From an uncultured Fibrobacter sp. (lineage in GTDB: Bacteria; Fibrobacterota; Fibrobacteria; Fibrobacterales; Fibrobacteraceae): a DNA stretch of 64,000 bases. Positions 52,621 through 63,876 of the stretch are shown here, one piece after another. Position numbers and translations under genes: made by a program. Below the pieces are notes generated by a model. That model searched no databases, was not told the DNA's origin, and was given only the letters and a program-made list of their open reading frames with translations. Position 1 is the stretch's first letter, and the number at the start of each line of letters is the position of its first letter. The stretch lies in contig NZ_CAMVDO010000001.1 in the NCBI RefSeq assembly GCF_947166265.1, positions 1-64,000 of the forward strand. The letters run 5' to 3'.

Positions 52621-54177
52621 TTATACTTCCCCGCCGAACTCAAATCCGGCTTCATCAACCGCCTTCTTGAGGGCGGTTTCGTTTATATCGTCTTCATCAT
52701 GCCACACCACACGGAGTTCCTTTTTCGAGACATCAGCTTCAGCCGAAATCACGCCGTCTAGCGCCCTTACCGCCTTCTCGACGCAAGCCTTGCAGTGACT
52801 GCAGTTCATGCCGTTCACGCGATAAGTTTCGACAACATGTTCGTCATGATGGTGATGCTCATGATGACCGCATTTGCAAGGTGGTTCGGCAAGCTCACCA
52901 TCCTTGCCATGTTCATGGTGATGATGTTCTTCGCATTCGCAATGATCTTCTCCTTCGCAGCAATCACAGGTCCCTGAGCCTGCCGAAGGGCCATCGCAGC
53001 AGCAATCATGATCGCCACAACCACAGCCGCAATGTCCGCAGCCACAGCCCTTATGCGCAAACTTCGCATAAATAATCAATGCGGCAAACAGCGCAGCGCA
53101 GATATAATCAAATACACCGAGCGCACCATGACCGTGACATTCTGCAGAACCATGCGGAAGCATCGATGCAAGGAACGTATCCATCAGGAACGTGTCGACA
53201 ATAAAGCCAAAGAACATCGCACCGAAAGCAATCGAAACAAGGTAAGCCACGAGAGTACGCTTGCCAAAGGCCTTGCCCACCACCAGCATGCTAGCGATAC
53301 TCGTTGCAGGGCCCGCCATCAACAGCACCAGAGCCGCACCCGGCGTAACGCCTTTTTCAACAAGAGCCAAAGCCAGCGGAATAGAGCCCGTTGCGCAAGT
53401 GTACATGGGCATAGCAAGCACCAGCACCACCAACATGCAAAGCAGCGGGTATTCGTGCAGGAACAAAAAGAAATCATCCGGGACAAAGGCGGCAATCAAG
53501 GCGCCCAGCAAAAGACCTATAATCAGCCACTTGCTCACATCGCCAATCATGTTCACAAAGCCATATTCAAAGGTTTCTTTCACCTTTTGCGCAAAAGACT
53601 TTTTTTCCTGTTCATCGTGGTCATCATGGCCGCAGGAACAATGTTCGCCTTCACAATGTTCGCTTTCGCAGCCGCAATGTTCATGCTCATGATGATGTTC
53701 GTGGTGATGCTCGTCGCCTCGACCATGCTCAACGACCTTATCGTCCGTTTCCCCCTTCGTCGCCAGATTCGTAAACACACCGCCAATCATCGCCGTCACA
53801 AAAGCGGCTACCGGGCGCAAAATCGCAAAGGGTCCACCGAGCAGAGAATATGTCGCCAAAATAGAATCCACACCTGTCGCAGGCGTCGAAATCAAGAAGC
53901 TCACGCTCGCGCCCTTGCTCGCCCCTTCTTTACGGAGTGCAATCGACGTCGGAATCACGCCACAGCTGCAAATCGGGAGCGGTACCCCAAACAACGCCGA
54001 CCAAAGCACCGACTTAAAGTTCGGCTTCGAAATTTTAGGTACATACAAGTGGTTCGGTACCCACACATGCAAAATGCCGGCAAGCAAAAAGCCGAGCAGC
54101 AGGAACGGCGCCATCTCCGAAAACAGCGTAATGAATTGCCAAACAAACTTTTCCAGAATTTCTAAAACCGCAGGCAT
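52621..54177 (-). CDS. SO_0444-type Cu/Zn efflux permease with His-rich loops and HMA domain
   Basis: The protein has 518 residues and exports a metal ion across the inner membrane. Two permease halves (DUF318/ArsP-like) contain VPLPICSCGVIPTSIALR and the second-half MYTCATGSIPLALALVEKG, the paired Cys-Gly and Thr-Gly motifs of this family. A cytoplasmic loop (about 155-190) and a second region (about 375-450) are very rich in His, Cys, Glu and Gly. The C-terminal HMA domain has GMNCSHCKAC. It abuts the ArsR-type regulator stop (TAA then ATG), so the two form one operon. A short repeat (52973-52990) is read in frame inside the second His/Cys region. Confidence 0.88.
   Translation of the reverse strand: MPAVLEILEKFVWQFITLFSEMAPFLLLGFLLAGILHVWVPNHLYVPKISKPNFKSVLWSALFGVPLPICSCGVIPTSIALRKEGASKGASVSFLISTPATGVDSILATYSLLGGPFAILRPVAAFVTAMIGGVFTNLATKGETDDKVVEHGRGDEHHHEHHHEHEHCGCESEHCEGEHCSCGHDDHDEQEKKSFAQKVKETFEYGFVNMIGDVSKWLIIGLLLGALIAAFVPDDFFLFLHEYPLLCMLVVLVLAMPMYTCATGSIPLALALVEKGVTPGAALVLLMAGPATSIASMLVVGKAFGKRTLVAYLVSIAFGAMFFGFIVDTFLMDTFLASMLPHGSAECHGHGALGVFDYICAALFAALIIYAKFAHKGCGCGHCGCGCGDHDCCCDGPSAGSGTCDCCEGEDHCECEEHHHHEHGKDGELAEPPCKCGHHEHHHHDEHVVETYRVNGMNCSHCKACVEKAVRALDGVISAEADVSKKELRVVWHDEDDINETALKKAVDEAGFEFGGEV
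52973..52990. repeat. CCTGAGCCTGCCGAAGGG repeat inside the metal-permease gene
   Basis: The word is shared with maltokinase (reverse complement at 45181-45196) and, in its GAGCCTGCCGAA core, with coaBC (15697-15708). It is read in frame as part of a Gly/Ser-rich segment. Confidence 0.65.
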
Positions 54178-54510
54178 TTACTTACCCTTCTTGTGCAGAA
54201 TATGCGTGAGACCCGTATTGAAAATCAAGCCGATGTGATCATCATCGAGCGAATAGAACATTTTGCGACCATCGCGACGCGGCTTCACCAAGTTTGCCGT
54301 ACGCAAAATACGCAACTGGTGGCTCACCACCGACTGCTCCAGGTTCAACTTTTCGGCAATGTCATTCACCGAAATTTCCCCAGAAAGCATCAAGTGGATA
54401 ATACGGATACGCGTGGTATCGCCAAAGAACTTGAAGAACTCCGAAAGCTCAAAAAGAACATCCATCGAGACTTCATTTTTCGCATTTTTAATATATGAAC
54501 AAGTATTCAT
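54178..54510 (-). CDS. ArsR/SmtB-family metal-responsive repressor
   Basis: The protein has up to 110 residues. The winged-helix core is FFKFFGDTTRIRIIHLMLSG, then ISVNDIAEKLNLEQSVVSHQ and LRILRTANLVKPRRDGRKMF, the standard ArsR pattern with recognition helix SVVSHQLRIL. It should repress the operon until metal binds. Two starts are possible: 54510 (which puts the operator across the start codon) and 54465, giving MDVLFELSE. If the TATATTAA at the edge of the operator is the -7 box, 54465 is more likely. The permease gene follows without a gap. Confidence 0.87.
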   Translation of the reverse strand: MNTCSYIKNAKNEVSMDVLFELSEFFKFFGDTTRIRIIHLMLSGEISVNDIAEKLNLEQSVVSHQLRILRTANLVKPRRDGRKMFYSLDDDHIGLIFNTGLTHILHKKGK

Positions 54511-54512
54511 AT
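54493..54512. promoter_or_regulatory. SmtB/ArsR-type operator
   Basis: ATATGAACAAGTATTCATAT is an imperfect 20-bp palindrome with the TGAA-n6-TTCA spacing known for ArsR/SmtB 12-2-12 operators. It overlaps one possible start codon and a possible promoter of the regulator gene. Confidence 0.8.
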
Positions 54513-54609
54513 TTACATATTTACATAATTTCAAGTTTATTGTCAAGGGGAAAGCCCTTTTTTTCTAAAAAAAACGTAATACACCCCCTGCAGATAGTTT
54601 TTGGTGTAT

Positions 54610-54677: not shown

Positions 54678-56273
54678 TTACGAATTCGTCGCTGTGGCGA
54701 CTTCTTCGATCTTCTTGAGGACGGAACCGTCTTCCATGGCCTTCATGGCCTTGTCGAAGCCTTCCTTGATGCTGGTTGCCTTCTTGCTGATGTAGAGGGC
54801 GGCACCGGCGTTCAGGGCGCAGGCGTACTTGATGCCCGGGCGGCCCTTGCCGTTCAGCACGTCGAGAGCGAGGTTGAAGTTGTCGACACCCGTACCGCCG
54901 GCGAGGTCTTCGGGGTCCACAGCCGGGACGCCGAATTCCTTCGGATCGATGCGGTATTCGCGATATTCACCGTCTTCGAGGATTTCGGCAATGGTCGTCG
55001 GGACGCACGGAGAGATTTCGTCGTAGCCGTCGTCGGAGATGGCGACCATCACGCGCTTGGCACCGAGGGACTTTGCAGCCTTGGTGAACGGTTCCAGAAT
55101 CGACTTGCTGTAAACGCCGAGCATCAGGTACTTGGCTTCGGCCGGGTTCGTGAGGGGGCCGAGCAGGTTCATGATGGTTTTGACGCCGAGGGCACCGCGA
55201 ACCGGGCCTGCAAAACGCATGGCGCTGTGATAGACCGGAGCCATGAGGAACACGAAGTTCGTCTTGTCGATGACAGAGGCTGCCTTTTCCGGAGTCATGT
55301 CGAGCTTGAAGCCCGCTGCAGTGTAGAAGTCTGCAGCACCGGACTTGCTGGAAACAGCGCGGTTACCGTGCTTGGCCACCTTGGCGCCACAGCTTGCAGC
55401 GATAAGGCCAGAGAGCGAGCTCACGTTGAAGCTACCCTTGCCGTCGCCACCGGTACCCACGATGTCGGTGAGTTCGTCACCGCTGTACGGGAACTTGCGC
55501 TTCTTGCTGCTGAGCACCTTGGCGCAGCCTGCAATTTCTTCGGTCACGGGACCCTTGCTGGAAAGGGCGGTAAGGATAGCGGCCATCTGGCGTTCGTCCA
55601 TGATACCGTCGGTCAGGTCTTCCATGAACATTTCGGCAGTTTCGCGGCTCAGGTCCTTGCCTGCGGTAAGCGTGTTCAGGATTCCGCGGATATCGAGCGG
55701 TTCACGGCGGTAGTTGAGGAAAGCCTTGAAGAATTCGTCGGCGCGACCGCTGGCGATAGATTCCGGGTGGAACTGCACGCCTTCAATCGGGAGCTTCTTG
55801 TGACGAATGCCCATGATGTCGCCGTCGGTCGCGCGGGCGGTCACTTCGAAGTCAGAAGAGAGCGTCGATTCGTCGATGACCAAGCTGTGGTAACGCGTGA
55901 AGATGTTCTTCTTGCCGATGGTGCGGAAGAGGCCCTTGCCGTCGAGGTCGATTTCTTCGGCGATGCCGTGCTTGATGAACTTGGCCTGCACAATCTTTGC
56001 GCCGAAAGCGTAACCGATGGCCTGATGGCCGAGGCAAACGCCCAAAATCGGGAGCTTTCCCGCAAAGTGCTTGATGGCTTCCACGGATATGCCGGCATCT
56101 TCGGGGCGGCCCGGGCCCGGACTCACGATGAGGCGGCTCGGATTCAGCTTTTCGATGTCGGCAATGGTGCATTCGCGGCTACGGAGCACGCGGATTTCTT
56201 CAGTGGTAATCTTGGCCAACGCCTGATAAACGTTGTAAGTAAAAGAGTCGTAGTTATCGATAATGACGATCAT
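54678..56273 (-). CDS. trpGD: Fused anthranilate synthase glutaminase / anthranilate phosphoribosyltransferase TrpGD
   Basis: The 531-residue fusion does two early steps of tryptophan synthesis. The glutaminase (TrpG) domain, residues 1-190, has SPGPGRPEDAG, the nucleophile in LGVCLGHQAIGYAFG (Cys79) and the His/Glu pair in VQFHPES. The phosphoribosyltransferase (TrpD) domain, about 200-531, has DIVGTGGDGKGSFNVSS and AAKVAKHGNRAVSSKSGAAD-like sequence with the PRPP-binding GTGGDG loop. The same fusion order is known in enterobacteria. The strong codon bias is like that of tkt. It lies 174 bp downstream of trpE with repeats between. trpC, trpF, trpB and trpA are not in the window. Confidence 0.95.
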   Translation of the reverse strand: MIVIIDNYDSFTYNVYQALAKITTEEIRVLRSRECTIADIEKLNPSRLIVSPGPGRPEDAGISVEAIKHFAGKLPILGVCLGHQAIGYAFGAKIVQAKFIKHGIAEEIDLDGKGLFRTIGKKNIFTRYHSLVIDESTLSSDFEVTARATDGDIMGIRHKKLPIEGVQFHPESIASGRADEFFKAFLNYRREPLDIRGILNTLTAGKDLSRETAEMFMEDLTDGIMDERQMAAILTALSSKGPVTEEIAGCAKVLSSKKRKFPYSGDELTDIVGTGGDGKGSFNVSSLSGLIAASCGAKVAKHGNRAVSSKSGAADFYTAAGFKLDMTPEKAASVIDKTNFVFLMAPVYHSAMRFAGPVRGALGVKTIMNLLGPLTNPAEAKYLMLGVYSKSILEPFTKAAKSLGAKRVMVAISDDGYDEISPCVPTTIAEILEDGEYREYRIDPKEFGVPAVDPEDLAGGTGVDNFNLALDVLNGKGRPGIKYACALNAGAALYISKKATSIKEGFDKAMKAMEDGSVLKKIEEVATATNS

Positions 56274-56447
56274 AGTAAAACTCAGTGGTTAGTGGTTAGT
56301 GATTAGTGGTTAGGAGGTATGAGCCCGCTTCGCTTTGAGGTATGAGGTCGTTCATGTCTTCGACATTCACTTTGAGCTTTTTATAGTCGCAGCTTCGCTG
56401 CCAAAATATTACTCATTGCTCACTGCTCATTGCTCACTGCTATTCGT
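56274..56447. repeat. Repeat-rich trpE-trpGD spacer
   Basis: TTAGTGGTTAGTGATTAGTG (56287-56316 region) matches the heptamers at 48723. It is followed by TATGAGCCCGCTTCGCTTTG plus AGGTATGAGG words, related to those at 21797 and 57929, and by CATTGCTCACTGCTCATTGC (near 56414). No gene is seen. Confidence 0.7.
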
Positions 56448-57896
56448 CTAATTCTCCCCCTCCAGTACAGCCCTGATTGCTCCGAGCTTTTCATTCGTTT
56501 CTTCAAATTCGCGGTCGGCGTTGCTGGCCGCGACAATGCCACCACCGGCCTGCAGGCTGATGGTCTTACCCTGCTTGAGGCAGCAACGGATAGCGATGCA
56601 GAAATCCAAATCGCCGTCGGATTCCATGTAACCTACTGCACCAGCGTAGAAGCGACGCTTGACCTTTTCGAGGCCAGAAAGGATTTCGATAGCGCTGATT
56701 TTCGGGGCACCGCTCACCGTACCTGCCGGGAAGCTGGAGCGCAGCACTTCAATCGCCTTCTTGGTCTTGGAAACCTTGCCCTGCACGTCAGAGACCAGGT
56801 GAATCACGTGGCTGAACTTTTCGCATTCCATGTACTTGGTGGTTTCCACCGTACCGGCTTCGCAGACGCGGCCAAGGTCATTACGGGCCAGGTCCACGAG
56901 CATCAAGTGTTCGGCGCGTTCCTTCGGGTCACCCTTCAGGTTCTTCATCAGGGCTTCATCTTCTACATCATCCTTGCCGCGGCGGCGAGTGCCTGCAATC
57001 GGATGAATCGTCGCGATACCATCACGCACACGTACCAGGCTTTCCGGCGAAGCACCGATAAACTGGTGCGTACCGTAATCGAGGAAGAACATGTACGGAG
57101 ACGGGTTCACCGTGCGGAGGCGGCGGTAAATGTCAAGCGCTTCGATATCGCTTGCGAACTGGATGCGGCGAGAAGGCACGGCCTGCACAATGTTACCAGC
57201 AATGATATGCTTCTGCAAAGCTTCGACCTTTTCCACGTATTCCTTGCGGGACTGTTCCAGGTCGGTCATCGTGATGCCCTTGCCGTACTGCTGTTCCGGG
57301 GCGAGGTAGCTGAAGTCGAGGTCAGCGAGGCGAGCCTTCACCTTTTCAATCGCGGCCTTCAAATCAATCTGGTGTTCTTCGTAGTTCAGGGCGAACAGGT
57401 GAAGCTTTTCGGTAAAGTGGTCAAACACAATGTAGATGTGACCCACCAGGAATTCCGCTTCAGGAATGTTGAGTTCGTCCACCTGCGGGGCAAGGCGAAT
57501 GGTATCGCAACGGGCGCAGAATTCGTAACCGAGGTAGCCCACGCCCGAAGACGGAATAGGAATCTGGTTAGGCGGCACCGTATTTTCCGCAGAAATGAGC
57601 GTCAGGGCGTCCAAAATATCGCCCTCGCCTTCCTTCAGGAACACGCTTTCCTTACCGTCGACAACGATGCTCACGTCCTTTTCATTCTGGCGCAGACGGA
57701 AACCTTCGTCCACCATCAGGGTCGAATAACGGCTACGACCGTGGGAGAAACTTGCGGATTCAAAGATTGCCTTCGCACCGAGCTTCTTGCCGAGCGAAAA
57801 CGGGGTGTAACGTTCACCGGGCAGCGCCACGTAGATACTGTCGGTACGGGGTTCGAAGTTAGGGCTTTCAGTAATGTGCCTTATGTTCGTTGTCAT
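56448..57896 (-). CDS. trpE: Anthranilate synthase component I
   Basis: TrpE converts chorismate plus ammonia (from TrpG) to anthranilate. The protein has 482 residues. The chorismate-binding core is complete: NPSPYMFFLDY, GASPESLVRVRDG, HPIAGTRRRGKD, HLMLVDLARNDLGRVCEAGT, FPAGTVSGAPKISAIEIL and GAVGYMESDGDLDFCIAIR. An N-terminal FESASFSHGRSRYS segment probably forms the tryptophan feedback site. GAGG lies 9 nt before the ATG. Transcription is expected to be controlled by the attenuator 180-310 nt upstream. Confidence 0.96.
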   Translation of the reverse strand: MTTNIRHITESPNFEPRTDSIYVALPGERYTPFSLGKKLGAKAIFESASFSHGRSRYSTLMVDEGFRLRQNEKDVSIVVDGKESVFLKEGEGDILDALTLISAENTVPPNQIPIPSSGVGYLGYEFCARCDTIRLAPQVDELNIPEAEFLVGHIYIVFDHFTEKLHLFALNYEEHQIDLKAAIEKVKARLADLDFSYLAPEQQYGKGITMTDLEQSRKEYVEKVEALQKHIIAGNIVQAVPSRRIQFASDIEALDIYRRLRTVNPSPYMFFLDYGTHQFIGASPESLVRVRDGIATIHPIAGTRRRGKDDVEDEALMKNLKGDPKERAEHLMLVDLARNDLGRVCEAGTVETTKYMECEKFSHVIHLVSDVQGKVSKTKKAIEVLRSSFPAGTVSGAPKISAIEILSGLEKVKRRFYAGAVGYMESDGDLDFCIAIRCCLKQGKTISLQAGGGIVAASNADREFEETNEKLGAIRAVLEGEN

Positions 57897-58390: not shown

Positions 58391-59140
58391 ATGTTCTATA
58401 AGCATTGGAAAAAGATCGCTCTTGCACTAACTGGGTACTTTTGGGCAGGTTGTGAAAACGACACCACCTCTGCTAACGAAGCCGAAGATCCTAGTTCCAG
58501 TAGCATTGTAACCCCCAAGTCCAGTTCTAGCGTAAAACGGACCCCGGCATCCAGTTCCAGCGAAGCTTCCAGCAAGAAAAAGAATTCTAGCTCTAGCACA
58601 GCCACCGATAAAAAAGGGAAATCCAGTTCTAGCGCAGCTACCGACAAAAAACAAGGTTCCAGCTCCTCTGAAGCGACCAACCCCGAAAGCTCCAGCAACG
58701 AATTCGAAATGATTATGCCGTTGTACGGCATCGAAATGAGCAAAACCATTTGCACCCAGGTAAAAGGTGATTCTACCATAAACTGCGGCGACGGCGTGAC
58801 CTGTACAGAAAAAATCGCCACGCAAATGATGGCGCCCCCCTGCAGTGTTGAAAAAAATGAAAAAGGCGAATTCACCACAATCTGTCCCGATTATGGAATT
58901 GTGCGAATTTCCGATAGCACCTACGAATGCGACGGAAAGGTTTATAGCGAAGCCGAATTCAAAGCCCGTTATATGACAACGATTATCGAAGGCAATCCCC
59001 AAGACCCGCCAAAGGAAGACACTATCAAAGTAGAGCCCATTACCGACACCCTCTTCTTTAAGGATTCCTCCTTTATGCAGCCCGCCCTTTACGGCCCTCC
59101 CTGCGTTTTCAACGGCACCTGTGGCGACAAGGAAGAATAA
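58391..59140 (+). CDS. Ser-rich lipoprotein, candidate rSAM/lipoprotein-system substrate 1
   Basis: The protein has 249 residues. The first ten (MFYKHWKKIA) are identical to those of the next gene's product. The lipobox YFWAGC gives Cys21. Residues 30-103 are a Ser-rich flexible linker with five SSSS-type clusters, after which there are eight further cysteines. Tyr-Gly motifs occur as PLYGIE (110-115), DYGIV (167-171) and ALYGPPC (232-238). YGxP-type motifs are a feature I recall for radical-SAM-associated lipoproteins of Bacteroides. GAGG lies just before the ATG. It is the first gene of a probable three-gene operon that ends with a radical SAM enzyme. A cell-surface location is likely. Confidence 0.82.
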   Translation: MFYKHWKKIALALTGYFWAGCENDTTSANEAEDPSSSSIVTPKSSSSVKRTPASSSSEASSKKKNSSSSTATDKKGKSSSSAATDKKQGSSSSEATNPESSSNEFEMIMPLYGIEMSKTICTQVKGDSTINCGDGVTCTEKIATQMMAPPCSVEKNEKGEFTTICPDYGIVRISDSTYECDGKVYSEAEFKARYMTTIIEGNPQDPPKEDTIKVEPITDTLFFKDSSFMQPALYGPPCVFNGTCGDKEE

Positions 59141-59158
59141 TCGTTACCTGGAGGAGAC

Positions 59159-59977
59159 ATGTTCTACAAACACTGGAAAAAAATAGCACTCACGTTGACC
59201 GCCTTCTTCTGGGCAAGTTGCGATGATTCCTCCTCCGCCGAGGCGGAATGCCTGTACGGGCCACCTCCGGAATACCAAAGTAGCGATTCGAACGACGCTT
59301 CATCTAGCGCAACCAGGGTGAAGAACCAGTCGAGTTCCAGCAAGACAAAAGAAACGTCAAGCGCTAGCAACAAAAGCGTTTCTTCTAGCTCCAAGGAGCA
59401 AAAAAACAAGGACTCCAGTTCCTCCGAAGCGACCGAGCCCAAAAGTTCAAGCAGCAAAACAAGCAAGGTCAAGTCGAGCTCCAGCGAGGAATTTTTCAAT
59501 CCGCCAGTTTACGGAGATGAACCCGTATTCGGAGAATCCAGTTCCAGCGAGGTAACGTGCGTCCCCGTGGATTCTTCCGTCGCATACTTCCAATTGGATT
59601 ACTCCGCAGAGCACTACAAGCGTAACGCCCAAGAAAACGCAAAACACGCGAGCGTTGCCAAAATCGACAGCATCATGCAGACTTTACAGGAAGTCCCGAC
59701 TTGCCTACAAAATCTGCGTATGCAGCTGGATATGTTTGTAGCACTTTATGGCGCCCCGACCATCATCACGAACGCGGTAGAATCTTGCAGCGATGGCACC
59801 ACCAGGCCCAGCGAAGAATACGCCAAGTTCCTTAAGATGAAAGAAGAATGGGAAAAGAACAAGCCCGCCCTGGATGAAGAGCTCAAGCAAATTTACGACG
59901 ACAAAATAAAGGACATCGAACAGCAGGTCAACCAGTGCCTCAATAGTTCTGAAACCGAAGAACAGAAGGGAAAATAA
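59159..59977 (+). CDS. Ser-rich lipoprotein, candidate rSAM/lipoprotein-system substrate 2
   Basis: The protein has 272 residues and is a paralogue of the preceding product: same MFYKHWKKIA start and the lipobox FFWASC with Cys21. Three YGxP motifs are present: CLYGPPP (31-37), PVYGDEP (116-122) and ALYGAPT (195-201). A Ser/Lys-rich linker (45-110) separates the first two. The C-terminal 130 residues are helical and charged (EHYKRNAQENAKHASVAKI and KMKEEWEKNKPALDEELKQ), with Cys at 134, 182, 210 and near 266. GGAGGAG is 4 nt before the ATG, and the gap to the previous gene is 18 bp. It could be a modified surface peptide carrier. Confidence 0.82.
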   Translation: MFYKHWKKIALTLTAFFWASCDDSSSAEAECLYGPPPEYQSSDSNDASSSATRVKNQSSSSKTKETSSASNKSVSSSSKEQKNKDSSSSEATEPKSSSSKTSKVKSSSSEEFFNPPVYGDEPVFGESSSSEVTCVPVDSSVAYFQLDYSAEHYKRNAQENAKHASVAKIDSIMQTLQEVPTCLQNLRMQLDMFVALYGAPTIITNAVESCSDGTTRPSEEYAKFLKMKEEWEKNKPALDEELKQIYDDKIKDIEQQVNQCLNSSETEEQKGK

Positions 59978-60025
59978 AAAATACCTGTCCCCTGACTCCT
60001 ATCCACAGATACCTGTTCCCATTCT

Positions 60026-61102
60026 ATGCAACTTTCGCTTAAAAAGAAACTCGCCCTCGAAGCTTATCGCCTTTACCGTCACAACGAAATCAAGGCGCAC
60101 CCGCTCACGTATTTTTTCTGGGAATGTACACTCCGCTGCAACCTGCACTGTCTGCATTGCGGTAGCGACTGCGTCAAGGACGCCATCCCGGACATGCCCC
60201 GCGAAGACTTTATGGCCGTGCTGGACAAATTGGCCCCGCACATCGACCCGAAGCACTTTATCGTGGTGATTACCGGCGGCGAGCCCCTGATGCGCCCAGA
60301 CCTCGAAGAATGCGGGCAAGAAATCAAGAAACGCGGCTACCCCTGGGGCATGGTTTCTAACGCGCTTGCGATGACCCCCGAACGTTACACGCGCCTGCTG
60401 AACGCAGGTCTCCGCTCGCTCACCATCAGCCTCGACGGTCTGCAGGAGAGTCACAACCATTTCCGCGGTGACCCGCATAGCTTTGAGCGAGCGCTGCGGG
60501 CCATTGACATGGCCGCCCACACCGAAGGTCTGACCTTCGATGTGATGACCTGCGTGAACCGCCAAAACCTGAAGGAGCTCCCGAAGATTCTCGATATGCT
60601 CCTGAAAATAGGCGTCAAACGCTGGAGAATCGCGACGGTATTCCCGAAGGGACGCGCCAAAGACAATCCGCTGTTCCAGCTCACGAACCAGGAATTCCGC
60701 CAGGTATTCGACTTTATCCGCGAAGTGAAAAAGCTGAACGTGATCAACGTGAACTACGGCTGCGAAGGTTTCCTCGGGAGCTACGAGAAAGACGCCCGCA
60801 ATTACCCGTTCTTCTGCCGTGCCGGCGTGAACGTATCCTCTGTGCTTTGCGATGGAAGCATCTCGGCCTGTCCAAGCCTCCGCGGCGACTACATTCAAGG
60901 AAACATCTACAAGGACGACATCTGGGACGTGTGGCAGAACCGCTACCAGGTGATGCGCGACCACAGCTGGGCAAAAATCGGCGACTGCAAGACCTGCAAG
61001 TACTGGCGCTACTGCGAAGGCTCCAGCCTGCATTTACGTGATGAAAAAACGAAGGAACTCGCCTACTGCCACGTCAAACGCCTTGAGGACGCCGGGGCAT
61101 AG
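60026..61102 (+). CDS. Radical SAM/SPASM enzyme, rSAM/lipoprotein system type
   Basis: The protein has 358 residues and is cytoplasmic. The 4Fe-4S motif is Cys38-x3-Cys42-x2-Cys45 in FFWECTLRCNLHCLHCGSDC, followed by TGGEPLMRPDL for S-adenosylmethionine binding. The C-terminal SPASM region has auxiliary-cluster cysteines in FFCRAGVNVSSVLCDGSISA and GDCKTCKYWRYCEGS. SPASM enzymes usually modify ribosomally made peptides or proteins. The start FFWEC with TLRC and the 48-bp distance from two YGxP lipoproteins fit the rSAM/lipoprotein system (TIGR04133 type) first defined by comparative genomics. The modification chemistry is unknown. A terminator follows. Confidence 0.88.
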   Translation: MQLSLKKKLALEAYRLYRHNEIKAHPLTYFFWECTLRCNLHCLHCGSDCVKDAIPDMPREDFMAVLDKLAPHIDPKHFIVVITGGEPLMRPDLEECGQEIKKRGYPWGMVSNALAMTPERYTRLLNAGLRSLTISLDGLQESHNHFRGDPHSFERALRAIDMAAHTEGLTFDVMTCVNRQNLKELPKILDMLLKIGVKRWRIATVFPKGRAKDNPLFQLTNQEFRQVFDFIREVKKLNVINVNYGCEGFLGSYEKDARNYPFFCRAGVNVSSVLCDGSISACPSLRGDYIQGNIYKDDIWDVWQNRYQVMRDHSWAKIGDCKTCKYWRYCEGSSLHLRDEKTKELAYCHVKRLEDAGA

Positions 61103-61272: not shown

Positions 61273-62664
61273 ATGCTGAACAAAAAGATTCCCTTCGCCC
61301 TGTTTGGCGCACTCGCTGTATCCGCAGCATTTGCGCAAGCACCGGAACAATCCCCCGCTCCTATTCAAAGGGCAATTGTTTCGCAATCGGCAGCGACAAC
61401 ACCCGCTCCGCAAGAAGCTCCTGCAGCACCCGCTCCAGAAGCGGCGCCAACACCCGCTCCACAGGCTGAACCCGCCCCTGTCCAAGAGGCCCCGGCTCCA
61501 CAGGCTGAGCCCACTCCTGTTCAAGCGGCCCCTGCTCCGCAAGCAGAACCTGCACCCGTGCAGGCATCCCCCGCACAACCTCAAGCCGTAGCGGCCCCTC
61601 AACCCGCTCCGCAACAGTACAATCAGATTCCTCCACAACAGGGAGCTCCGCAACAATATAACCAGGGCTATTACAATCAACAACCCCAAGGATACCCACC
61701 GCAGCAGTACAACCAAGGCTACTACGACCAACAGCCTCAAGGGTATCCGCAGCAGCAATACAATCAGGGCTACTACGGACAGCCGCCCCAAGGGTATCCG
61801 CAGCAACAGTACAACCAGGGCTACAATGAACAGCAACCTCAAGGATATCCGCAACAGTACAATCAGGGTTATTACGGACAGTCTCCCCAAGGGTACCCGC
61901 AACAATACAACCAGCAGGCCTACCCCCCTCCCCAGGAGCAGCCCAAGGCCCACGATGACACCAGGTCACTTCATAGCCTGAACGTTTCCATCCCTATCGA
62001 AAAAGAGACCTACAACGTCAAAAAGCCTGATTACGATATGGATGCAGACATCTTTGGCGTTTACGGCAACTGGAACCGCATCAAGGTCGAAAATTCTGGA
62101 TATTCCTCCATTTTCGGTCTCGGTGGCGGCTACGCCAAGAGCGAACTGGACGCAGGCGGCAGCTCAACTTTGGATTTGAGCGGTTTCGACGTGAACCTTA
62201 AATTCGGTATCGGTTTTGCTCCCCTTACAAGCGACTTCATTCTTGCAATTCATGCCATTATGGGATTTGATTTCAAGATGCTATCGGCGACCATCAAGGA
62301 CGACCCCAAAGACAGCGATAAAGGCAGCTTTGAGTACGACGGCTATACCATAGACATCGAAGAGTTGGAAGAATACGGGGTAGACTACGAACATAAAGCG
62401 GAACTTTCGCTCCTCGCTTTCGACGTGGTTCTGGGTGGCGACCTCGTCCTTGCCTACCAGGTGTTCGAGCACTTTGGCGTCATGGCCGGTGTTGACGTCA
62501 CCTGCAACATGATCGGTGTCGGCTATTTCGGTTACGAAGAATCGGCGACGGTGAGTTACCAAGGGCGATCGGAATCGGATTCCCAAAGCGATAAAAAATT
62601 CCTGATGTATAACCTGACCGGGCCTAACATCATCCCGCGCGCAGGTATATTCTTTGTGTTCTAA
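61273..62664 (+). CDS. Outer-membrane barrel protein with Pro/Ala and YNQGYY repeats
   Basis: The protein has 463 residues. Residues 1-21 are a signal peptide (PFALFGALAVSAAFA). Residues about 40-112 are a Pro/Ala/Gln/Glu repeat (AEPAPVQEAPAPQAEP type). Residues about 115-223 contain about six copies of a 17-18 residue unit, QQYNQGYYxQQPQGYPQ, encoded by degenerate 51-54-bp DNA repeats at 61610-61930. The last 230 residues are beta-rich and contain GLGGGYAKSEL and VNLKFGIGFAPL, and end in GIFFVF, like a small outer-membrane barrel. The Tyr/Gln/Gly repeat recalls prion-like and adhesive sequences. AAGGAG precedes the ATG. A terminator separates it from the radical SAM gene, so cotranscription is doubtful. 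Confidence 0.8.
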   Translation: MLNKKIPFALFGALAVSAAFAQAPEQSPAPIQRAIVSQSAATTPAPQEAPAAPAPEAAPTPAPQAEPAPVQEAPAPQAEPTPVQAAPAPQAEPAPVQASPAQPQAVAAPQPAPQQYNQIPPQQGAPQQYNQGYYNQQPQGYPPQQYNQGYYDQQPQGYPQQQYNQGYYGQPPQGYPQQQYNQGYNEQQPQGYPQQYNQGYYGQSPQGYPQQYNQQAYPPPQEQPKAHDDTRSLHSLNVSIPIEKETYNVKKPDYDMDADIFGVYGNWNRIKVENSGYSSIFGLGGGYAKSELDAGGSSTLDLSGFDVNLKFGIGFAPLTSDFILAIHAIMGFDFKMLSATIKDDPKDSDKGSFEYDGYTIDIEELEEYGVDYEHKAELSLLAFDVVLGGDLVLAYQVFEHFGVMAGVDVTCNMIGVGYFGYEESATVSYQGRSESDSQSDKKFLMYNLTGPNIIPRAGIFFVF

Positions 62665-62715: not shown

Positions 62716-63876
62716 ATGACTCATTTTAAACTATCCTCTGGAGCAGCCCTCCTTGTGGCCGCCTCCTTTAGTGTGGGACTTTTCGGTTGCTCAACAGAAA
62801 ATAGCGTCGATTCGCTCCGCTGCTTTACCGTCAAATGCACCGACAACGACTACGATGACGAAGATGAAAGAGAAGACGATGATGATTACGACAAGGGAAA
62901 ATCATCGTCGAGCACCACCAAGTTGCCTCGGGGCTGCGACAATTACGTAAGCAGTCTTTCAATTGCTCCACACTGCTATCTCGAAGATTTTGGCACCACG
63001 CTCTACGACGAAGACACCAAGACTATTTATTCGTGCGAAGAGAATGGCTATACAATCGAGGGATATTGGCAAGAGCATAATTCGTTCAAGAACTGCGACG
63101 AATATGTATCGCCTTATTCAAACTATAAGGACTGGTTCAGTAGCAGCTCGGACGAGGATTTCGACGACTGGAGTTCCAGCAGTTCTAAAGAAATCCTTCC
63201 AATTATCGAAGGCGAATTGTTCGATGATCGAGATGGCAACATCTATAAGACCGTTACCATAGGAACACAAACCTGGATGGCCGAAAACCTCAGATACCGT
63301 TACCTGCAACCGACCGAAGATCTCGATTCCTCCAGTTTCTGCTATAACGAAACGGTTGAGGACTGCGACAAATACGGACGTTATTATTTATGGTCTGCTG
63401 CCATGGACAGTGCAGGATATTTCACCAATGACGGCCTCGGTTGCGGAAACGGCGTATACTGCGAGCCAACTTACCCGGTACAGGGACTATGTCCAGACGG
63501 ATGGCACTTACCTCGCGAAGAGGAAGTAGAAACATTGCTGGAATACACACATTCCAAATCTGATGGCGGACAATCTTTAAAAGCCACAGACGGTTGGGTC
63601 ATTCCCGGAACAGACGAATACGGCTTCAATGTCCTTGCTAGCGGAATTTGGTACCCAGGCGACAGCATTCACGCGCAAGGAACATACGACGAAGGTTGGT
63701 ATACGGCATTTTGGATTTCAACCGAATTCAATAACACAAACTCCGAACATTCCGGTGAATTCGCCAGCATATTCCGTGTCAATATAAGCGACGACGTTAT
63801 CTCCGAAATTTCCAATGATGAAATCGGACATAAATGGCGTGGTTTGCACATCCGCTGCCTAAAGGACTCTGAATAA
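62716..63876 (+). CDS. FISUMP-domain lipoprotein with acidic/Ser-rich linker
   Basis: The protein has 386 residues. The lipobox SVGLFGC gives Cys25. An acidic stretch (DNDYDDEDEREDDDDYDKGK, about 50-69) may bind calcium or other cations. A small Cys-containing module (about 72-136, GCDNYVSSLSIAPHCYLEDF) follows, then a Ser-rich segment, then one FISUMP domain from about residue 165. The domain landmarks are YKTVTIGTQTWMAENLRYRY, GRYYLWSAAMDSAG, GLCPDGWHLPREEE and LHIRC. GAGG is 8 nt before the ATG. It shows the same head-domain plan as the other FISUMP lipoproteins and probably sits on the surface. Confidence 0.87.
   Translation: MTHFKLSSGAALLVAASFSVGLFGCSTENSVDSLRCFTVKCTDNDYDDEDEREDDDDYDKGKSSSSTTKLPRGCDNYVSSLSIAPHCYLEDFGTTLYDEDTKTIYSCEENGYTIEGYWQEHNSFKNCDEYVSPYSNYKDWFSSSSDEDFDDWSSSSSKEILPIIEGELFDDRDGNIYKTVTIGTQTWMAENLRYRYLQPTEDLDSSSFCYNETVEDCDKYGRYYLWSAAMDSAGYFTNDGLGCGNGVYCEPTYPVQGLCPDGWHLPREEEVETLLEYTHSKSDGGQSLKATDGWVIPGTDEYGFNVLASGIWYPGDSIHAQGTYDEGWYTAFWISTEFNNTNSEHSGEFASIFRVNISDDVISEISNDEIGHKWRGLHIRCLKDSE

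Follow-up and report, generated by a model that had tools for sequence, protein, structure and literature searches.

What does a radical S-adenosylmethionine (SAM) enzyme do in an operon whose other products are lipoproteins? The question is raised by a compact operon on the + strand at positions 58391-61102 of a 64,000-nucleotide stretch (the window) of contig NZ_CAMVDO010000001.1 from an uncultured, rumen-type Fibrobacter sp., in which the genes for lipoprotein 1, lipoprotein 2 and a radical SAM/SPASM enzyme follow one another with gaps of 18 and then 48 bases. The host genome (3.77 Mb in 89 contigs; labelled G000) has Fibrobacter as its close relatives. We propose that the operon probably encodes a lipoprotein-directed tyramine splicease with two substrates, six predicted splice sites and the signal peptide as leader. 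This proposal draws on gene order, enzyme family, enrichment of the motif X-Tyr-Gly (XYG), linkage of that motif to the leader, co-occurrence of leader and enzyme among genomes, and an ancestry and signature shared with PlpX-type enzymes. Tyramine excision is proven for PlpXY, whereas for the window enzyme we infer it from sequence. The first-pass annotation had called the chemistry unknown; because motif, clade and signature residues all point to PlpXY-like tyramine excision, it would now be narrowed to that reaction.

The operon and the X-Tyr-Gly motif

The features of the operon are as follows (ORF, open reading frame; HMM, hidden Markov model).

58391..59140, +, lipoprotein 1, 249 residues, predicted substrate (ORF; leader HMM E 7.2e-15; three XYG sites)
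58391..58453, +, lipoprotein 1 signal peptide and presumed recognition leader, MFYKHWKKIALALTGYFWAGC (lipobox Cys21, leader family)
58493..58696, +, lipoprotein 1 Ser-rich linker (from translation)
58721..58729, +, predicted splice site 1, L111-Y-G (MPLYGIE), lipoprotein 1
58889..58897, +, predicted splice site 2, D167-Y-G (CPDYGIV), lipoprotein 1, missed by the first-pass annotation
59087..59095, +, predicted splice site 3, L233-Y-G (PALYGPP), lipoprotein 1
59159..59977, +, lipoprotein 2, 272 residues, predicted substrate (ORF; leader HMM E 2.2e-16; three XYG sites)
59159..59221, +, lipoprotein 2 signal peptide and presumed recognition leader, MFYKHWKKIALTLTAFFWASC (lipobox Cys21, leader family)
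59252..59260, +, predicted splice site 4, L32-Y-G (ECLYGPPP), lipoprotein 2
59279..59494, +, lipoprotein 2 Ser-rich linker (from translation)
59507..59515, +, predicted splice site 5, V117-Y-G (PPVYGDEP), lipoprotein 2, the weakest match, Asp being rare at +2
59744..59752, +, predicted splice site 6, L196-Y-G (VALYGAP), lipoprotein 2
60026..61102, +, TIGR04133 radical SAM/SPASM enzyme, 358 residues, predicted lipoprotein splicease (TIGR04133 score, clade, signature)
60137..60166, +, enzyme CX3CX2C-Gly-Ser segment, residues 38-47 (radical SAM cluster motif and HCGS signature)
60815..61069, +, enzyme SPASM region, Cys 264 to Cys 348 (Pfam PF13186 at residues 264-325; conserved Cys)

Both lipoproteins begin with MFYKHWKKIAL, carry Cys21 in a W-A-[GS]-C lipobox and have Ser-rich linkers; coordinates and translations agree with the tandem pair originally described. 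Each holds three XYG sites, at L111, D167 and L233 in lipoprotein 1 and at L32, V117 and L196 in lipoprotein 2. The sites named at first all exist, but PDYGIV of lipoprotein 1 had been overlooked and sites without Pro had been pooled under a YGxP-type motif.

In a comparison with 79 related loci, the Tyr-Gly sites are much more frequent than chance would give, and their constant unit is X-Y-G. YG is held by 171 of the 175 leader-bearing lipoproteins, which contain it 481 times against 95 expected from composition. The pattern [PA]xYG[VIPACL] occurs 8.9 times per 1000 residues in 174 leader-bearing lipoproteins versus 0.18 in 402 other ORFs of the same loci, and not once in 29 other lipoproteins of those loci. 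The consensus from 404 distinct sites is [P 47%/A 27%]-[L 46%/K 17%]-Y-G-[V 50%/I 13%], within a broader profile of [P/A]-[L/K/D/E/A]-Y-G-[V/I/P/A/C], and 36% of the sites have Pro at +3. YGxP was counted 195 times, versus 5.6 in shuffles, in a looser set of 191 proteins that includes a few spurious ORFs; because 81 of these 191 are without it, Pro at +3 is optional. As a constant motif YGxP was accordingly rejected, being missing from about 40% of leader-bearing lipoproteins while nearly all hold XYG.

The association between enzyme and lipoprotein extends well beyond this operon. An XYG lipoprotein adjoins the enzyme in 57 of the 58 Fibrobacter-type loci with enough flanking sequence and in all 17 loci from other phyla, so that the expectation of motif lipoproteins beside the enzyme in other Fibrobacter held for XYG, though YGxP itself was not constant there. 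The arrangement found here, two lipoprotein genes directly upstream of a TIGR04133 enzyme, is kept in relatives. Fibrobacter loci hold from one to about ten such lipoproteins, and a pair of substrates on Ser-rich stalks is thus not the special variant it had been taken for. The regions outside the motif vary widely between predicted substrates, and across phyla these share only a signal peptide and XYG. XYG is the common denominator of all predicted substrates, including the zinc-ribbon protein described below.

Membership in the partner family TIGR04134 (lipo_with_rSAM; cut-off 39.8 bits), for which the first-pass annotation had suggested a search, was rejected: neither window lipoprotein matches the model and no match exceeds the cut-off anywhere in the host genome. 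The model's cut-off is reached by the lipoproteins that accompany TIGR04133 enzymes in Bacteroidales, in Treponema and in one genome of the window's own family. The Bacteroidales pair of Parabacteroides distasonis (NZ_OY725757.1) resembles the window system in its enzyme family, in a lipoprotein encoded directly upstream and in an XYG close to the lipid-bearing Cys (CEYGSPHANF). In contrast to that pair, the Fibrobacter lipoproteins have no TIGR04134 match, carry Ser-rich stalks and several sites, bear a K-H-W...W-x-x-C leader where the Bacteroidales TIGR04134 lipoproteins have K-x-x-D-K, and place mostly Leu or Lys at X where the pair has Glu or Met.

Some lipoproteins in the compared loci are of note in their own right. 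Those of 60-85 residues beside TIGR04133 enzymes in Neomarinimicrobiota and Paludibacter (L105:2956-3183, L109, L112, L106:5327-5518, L110) contain two or three tandem XYG sites, for example PAEYGPEPLYGTVEPLYGVSS and VPAYGVKPLYGVLPAK; some of these tiny lipoproteins have GTG or TTG as start codon or run into the following gene, and annotation may miss them. One Fibrobacter lipoprotein (L058:2236-3048) consists of near-identical tandem repeats, each with VPAYGVPSTSSS, in four copies, and a leader-bearing one (L061:11896-12588) has PLYGIKPP, PLYGIKPP and PLYGVRPG in series.

The signal peptide, the enzyme and its ancestry

The leader HMM was built on nothing but the signal peptide (24 residues), XYG playing no part in finding matches. 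It matches in 80 of the 111 genomes of the window's family, and TIGR04133 enzymes are present in 76 of the 111, many with two copies. Both occur in 74 genomes, the enzyme only in 2, the leader only in 6 and neither in 29 (Fisher p 1.6e-18, not corrected for phylogeny). In one enzyme-only genome (G041) the upstream protein has three XYG sites nonetheless (L204), and all readable leader-bearing genes distant from an enzyme carry XYG. In the host genome the model picks up just the two window lipoproteins, and further substrates elsewhere in that genome were rejected on this ground. Trp occupies position -3 of the lipobox in 143 of 144 genuine leaders, nine other matches having looked like spurious frames; it is an unusual residue there, yet nearly invariant in Fibrobacter leaders. 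The near-invariance of this Trp suggests that the enzyme itself reads the signal peptide as a recognition leader; in front of its radical SAM core the enzyme leaves no space for a recognition domain, and its neighbors include nothing like PlpY.

The enzyme scores 619.8 bits over its full length against TIGR04133 (rSAM_w_lipo; cut-off 425), bearing out the family membership suggested at first. Its Pfam Radical_SAM (PF04055) and SPASM (PF13186) matches both exceed their cut-offs, with Cys38/42/45 forming CX3CX2C and Cys 264, 282, 321, 324, 330 and 348 in the SPASM region, so the early description as a SPASM radical SAM enzyme stands. Structure prediction, which took window and locus proteins only as input, gave a model with a predicted local distance difference test (pLDDT) score of 81. 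A fold search with it found SuiB, SkfB, PqqE and BlsE closest, and the predicted fold is nearest to SPASM enzymes that mature ribosomally synthesized and post-translationally modified peptides. No solved structure of a close relative was found, the best sequence matches being BlsE, SkfB and PqqE. In domains, CX3CX2C, SPASM cysteines and predicted fold, the enzyme matches the SPASM-type peptide-modifying radical SAM enzymes.

A single clade that joins TIGR04133, the enzymes of Fibrobacter with a zinc-ribbon partner and the TIGR04103, GDL and Agathobacter enzymes (98/95) supports an ancestor shared with TIGR04103 enzymes and not with other SPASM families; the clade was recovered at 95/95 in a tree with 14 outgroups, outgroup choice being limited in these trees. 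Gly-Ser directly after CX3CX2C (HCGS) occurs in 22 of 22 XYG-associated enzymes versus 0 of 18 other SPASM enzymes, and W200, T175, A211 and E254 are distributed likewise, these signature residues having been chosen after the alignment was seen. Apart from TIGR04133 enzymes, the top match in a plasmid collection is a TIGR04103 enzyme of Nostoc, next to which a Nif11 peptide with the ending IALYGLPPELF is encoded. Next come Azospirillum GDL maturases beside DUF1843 peptides with LYGG (MLYGG) and PYGV (KPYGV), and an Agathobacter enzyme is also among the matches, with an upstream ORF ending VMYGTGVRM. The GDL-motif maturase TIGR03913 of Azospirillum oryzae shares the enzyme clade, and its DUF1843 peptides carry LYGG or PYGV; unlike the window lipoproteins, these are short, cytoplasmic-looking and without a signal peptide. 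Among the DUF1843 'GDL' and Agathobacter peptides next to PlpX-like enzymes (L126:2028-2743, L124:3156-3869, L127:2710) we observed LYGG, PYGV, LYAA, MYMA and MYGT.

Sister enzymes of the TIGR04133 group occur in Fibrobacter itself (L134-L137 and L205, in G019, G084, G076, G025 and G046). Like the window enzyme they have an XYG partner, while at about 275 bits they fall under the TIGR04133 cut-off and their zinc-ribbon partner, with [IL]YGPPI[RKT], is cytoplasmic-looking and leaderless, unlike the window lipoproteins. Such a sister enzyme may be a splicease that acts on a cytoplasmic protein.

Proposed tyramine excision and its alternatives

PlpXY acts on XYG (PMC10533398; PMC10373908), and its splicease chemistry is set out in PMC11002830 and PMC10373908. 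Like the window operon, PlpXY of Pleurocapsa combines XYG in a near-identical context (PLYGLP), a SPASM radical SAM enzyme and multi-site substrates. The PlpA2 tag reads PIRPLYGLPI, that is, a core of ...RPLYGLPI, and the PlpA3 tag AVAA-M-YGVVFPG, printed with an M-to-G change (PMC10533398; PMC10373908); in these published tags, GGPIRPLYGLPI and GAVAAGYGVVFPG (the M-to-G variant), the context is the same as at the Fibrobacter sites. PlpX-type enzymes (TIGR04103) and the window enzyme belong to the same clade and have HCGS in common. The leaders differ, being of Nif11 or nitrile-hydratase type in PlpXY and a lipoprotein signal peptide in the window. Our literature search returned no paper naming TIGR04133 or TIGR04134, and the 2022 splicease survey of Scott et al. 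(Chem), with its 939 predicted splicease systems (number from PMC10533398), may already include this family.

In the mechanism we propose, the TIGR04133 enzyme would encounter the prolipoproteins while they are still in the cytoplasm, awaiting export, and would recognize the conserved signal peptide, K-H-W-K-K ... F-F-W-[AS]-[SG]-C. Excision of tyramine at X-Tyr-Gly would convert X into a ketoamide (an alpha-keto-beta-amino acid), and the spliced products would then be exported, lipidated at Cys21 and displayed on their Ser-rich stalks.

Several observations weigh against this proposal. The enzyme reaches only 136.5 bits to TIGR04103 (nif11 maturase 3), and because this lies far under the cut-off of 725 it is not a member of that family, to which we presume PlpX belongs on the basis of InterPro IPR026482. 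TIGR04053 scores the enzyme slightly higher than TIGR04103 does, and a first tree, with long-branch outgroups kept, did not resolve whether the two XYG clades are sisters. PlpXY is described as a two-protein complex with PlpY as recognition partner, whereas no PlpY-like gene adjoins the enzyme within the window, the rest of the genome not having been searched for a partner. Finally, one Fibrobacter genome that is 99% complete (G049) has weak leader matches carrying XYG (L198, L206, L207) and no TIGR04133 enzyme, reflecting either a recent enzyme loss or an assembly gap.

Of the other explanations, the one that survives best is a different radical reaction at X-Tyr-Gly, namely a cyclophane-like cross-link of the Tyr ring to an adjacent side chain, oxidative decarboxylation or epimerization, all of which SPASM enzymes catalyze. 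That SuiB (a Lys-Trp cross-linking enzyme), SkfB and PqqE rank first in the fold search speaks for it, as does the enrichment of V/I and P at +2 and +3, possible cross-link partners. Yet the +2 and +3 residues vary whereas X-Y-G is constant, Tyr is not replaced by Phe (Phe-Gly is not enriched, F-G making up 3.3% of Phe versus 27% of Tyr for Y-G), and the enzyme's nearest relatives are tied to the splicease motif; we thus consider such a reaction improbable. Alternatively, X-Tyr-Gly could be a structural or binding motif that stays unmodified, with the lipoprotein only serving the enzyme or being acted on elsewhere, conceivably near the lipidated N-terminus because the domains outside the motif differ so widely between substrates. 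The signal peptide and XYG are, however, the sole features that substrates share across phyla, and the tandem sites and repeats would fit multi-site modification, leaving this explanation quite unlikely. That ordinary lipoproteins merely happen to lie beside a radical SAM enzyme unrelated to them (a heme or cofactor enzyme, for instance) is barely credible: Fibrobacter genomes do hold many Ser-rich lipoproteins and the enzyme is weakly similar to the AhbD and NirJ models, but adjacency is conserved in several phyla, genome co-occurrence strongly disfavors chance, the host genome has distinct genes for AhbC- and AhbD-like enzymes, and a grouping of TIGR04133 with heme enzymes and TIGR04053 was rejected (p-AU 0.0007).

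If tyramine excision is the reaction, the function of its products can be considered. Spliceotides are reported protease inhibitors (PMC10373908; PMC11117315), and the electrophilic ketoamides could act as reversible covalent inhibitors with X in the P1 position. An X that varies (Leu, Lys, Asp, Glu, Ala) and is preceded by Pro or Ala would be consistent with inhibitors aimed at several proteases. Reasoning from this chemistry, we advance a role as protease inhibitors at the surface only tentatively, proteolysis resistance and covalent surface attachment being alternatives. More speculative again, and on balance unlikely, is the wider notion that the surface lipoproteins of Fibrobacter and its relatives present whole arrays of protease traps, ketoamides made on the ribosome, with the signal peptide as modification leader, with X (P1 Leu, Lys, Asp, Glu, Ala or others, usually after Pro or Ala) setting the target protease, and with lineages expanding to at least 10 genes.

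Surroundings and significance

A scan for promoters and terminators gave no signal clearly above shuffles. The opposite strand carries, upstream of the lipoproteins, fused TrpG-TrpD and TrpE genes (54678-57896), an ArsR-type regulator (54178-54546, -) and, behind it, a Cu/Zn efflux transporter of the SO_0444 type (52621-54177, -), which has a stretch very rich in Cys and His and, fused at its C-terminus, a CopZ-like domain. Downstream of the enzyme come a secreted protein rich in Pro and Gln (61273-62664, +), which has YNQGYY repeats and matches no family, and a lipoprotein with a FISUMP domain (62716-63876, +), whose lipobox is canonical (LFGC) and which lacks the leader.

The TIGR04133/TIGR04134 system is found in bacteria of the gut and rumen (Bacteroidales, Fibrobacter, Treponema), where it is annotated solely as 'radical SAM-associated putative lipoprotein'. 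Once a defined reaction is proposed for it, with a constant loss of mass, this long-known orphan system can be tested by one co-expression experiment. If the proposal is true, common gut and rumen bacteria would carry on their surfaces proteins with alpha-keto-beta-amino acids; such proteins might act as protease inhibitors or react with other molecules, and the signal peptide would double as export signal and modification leader.

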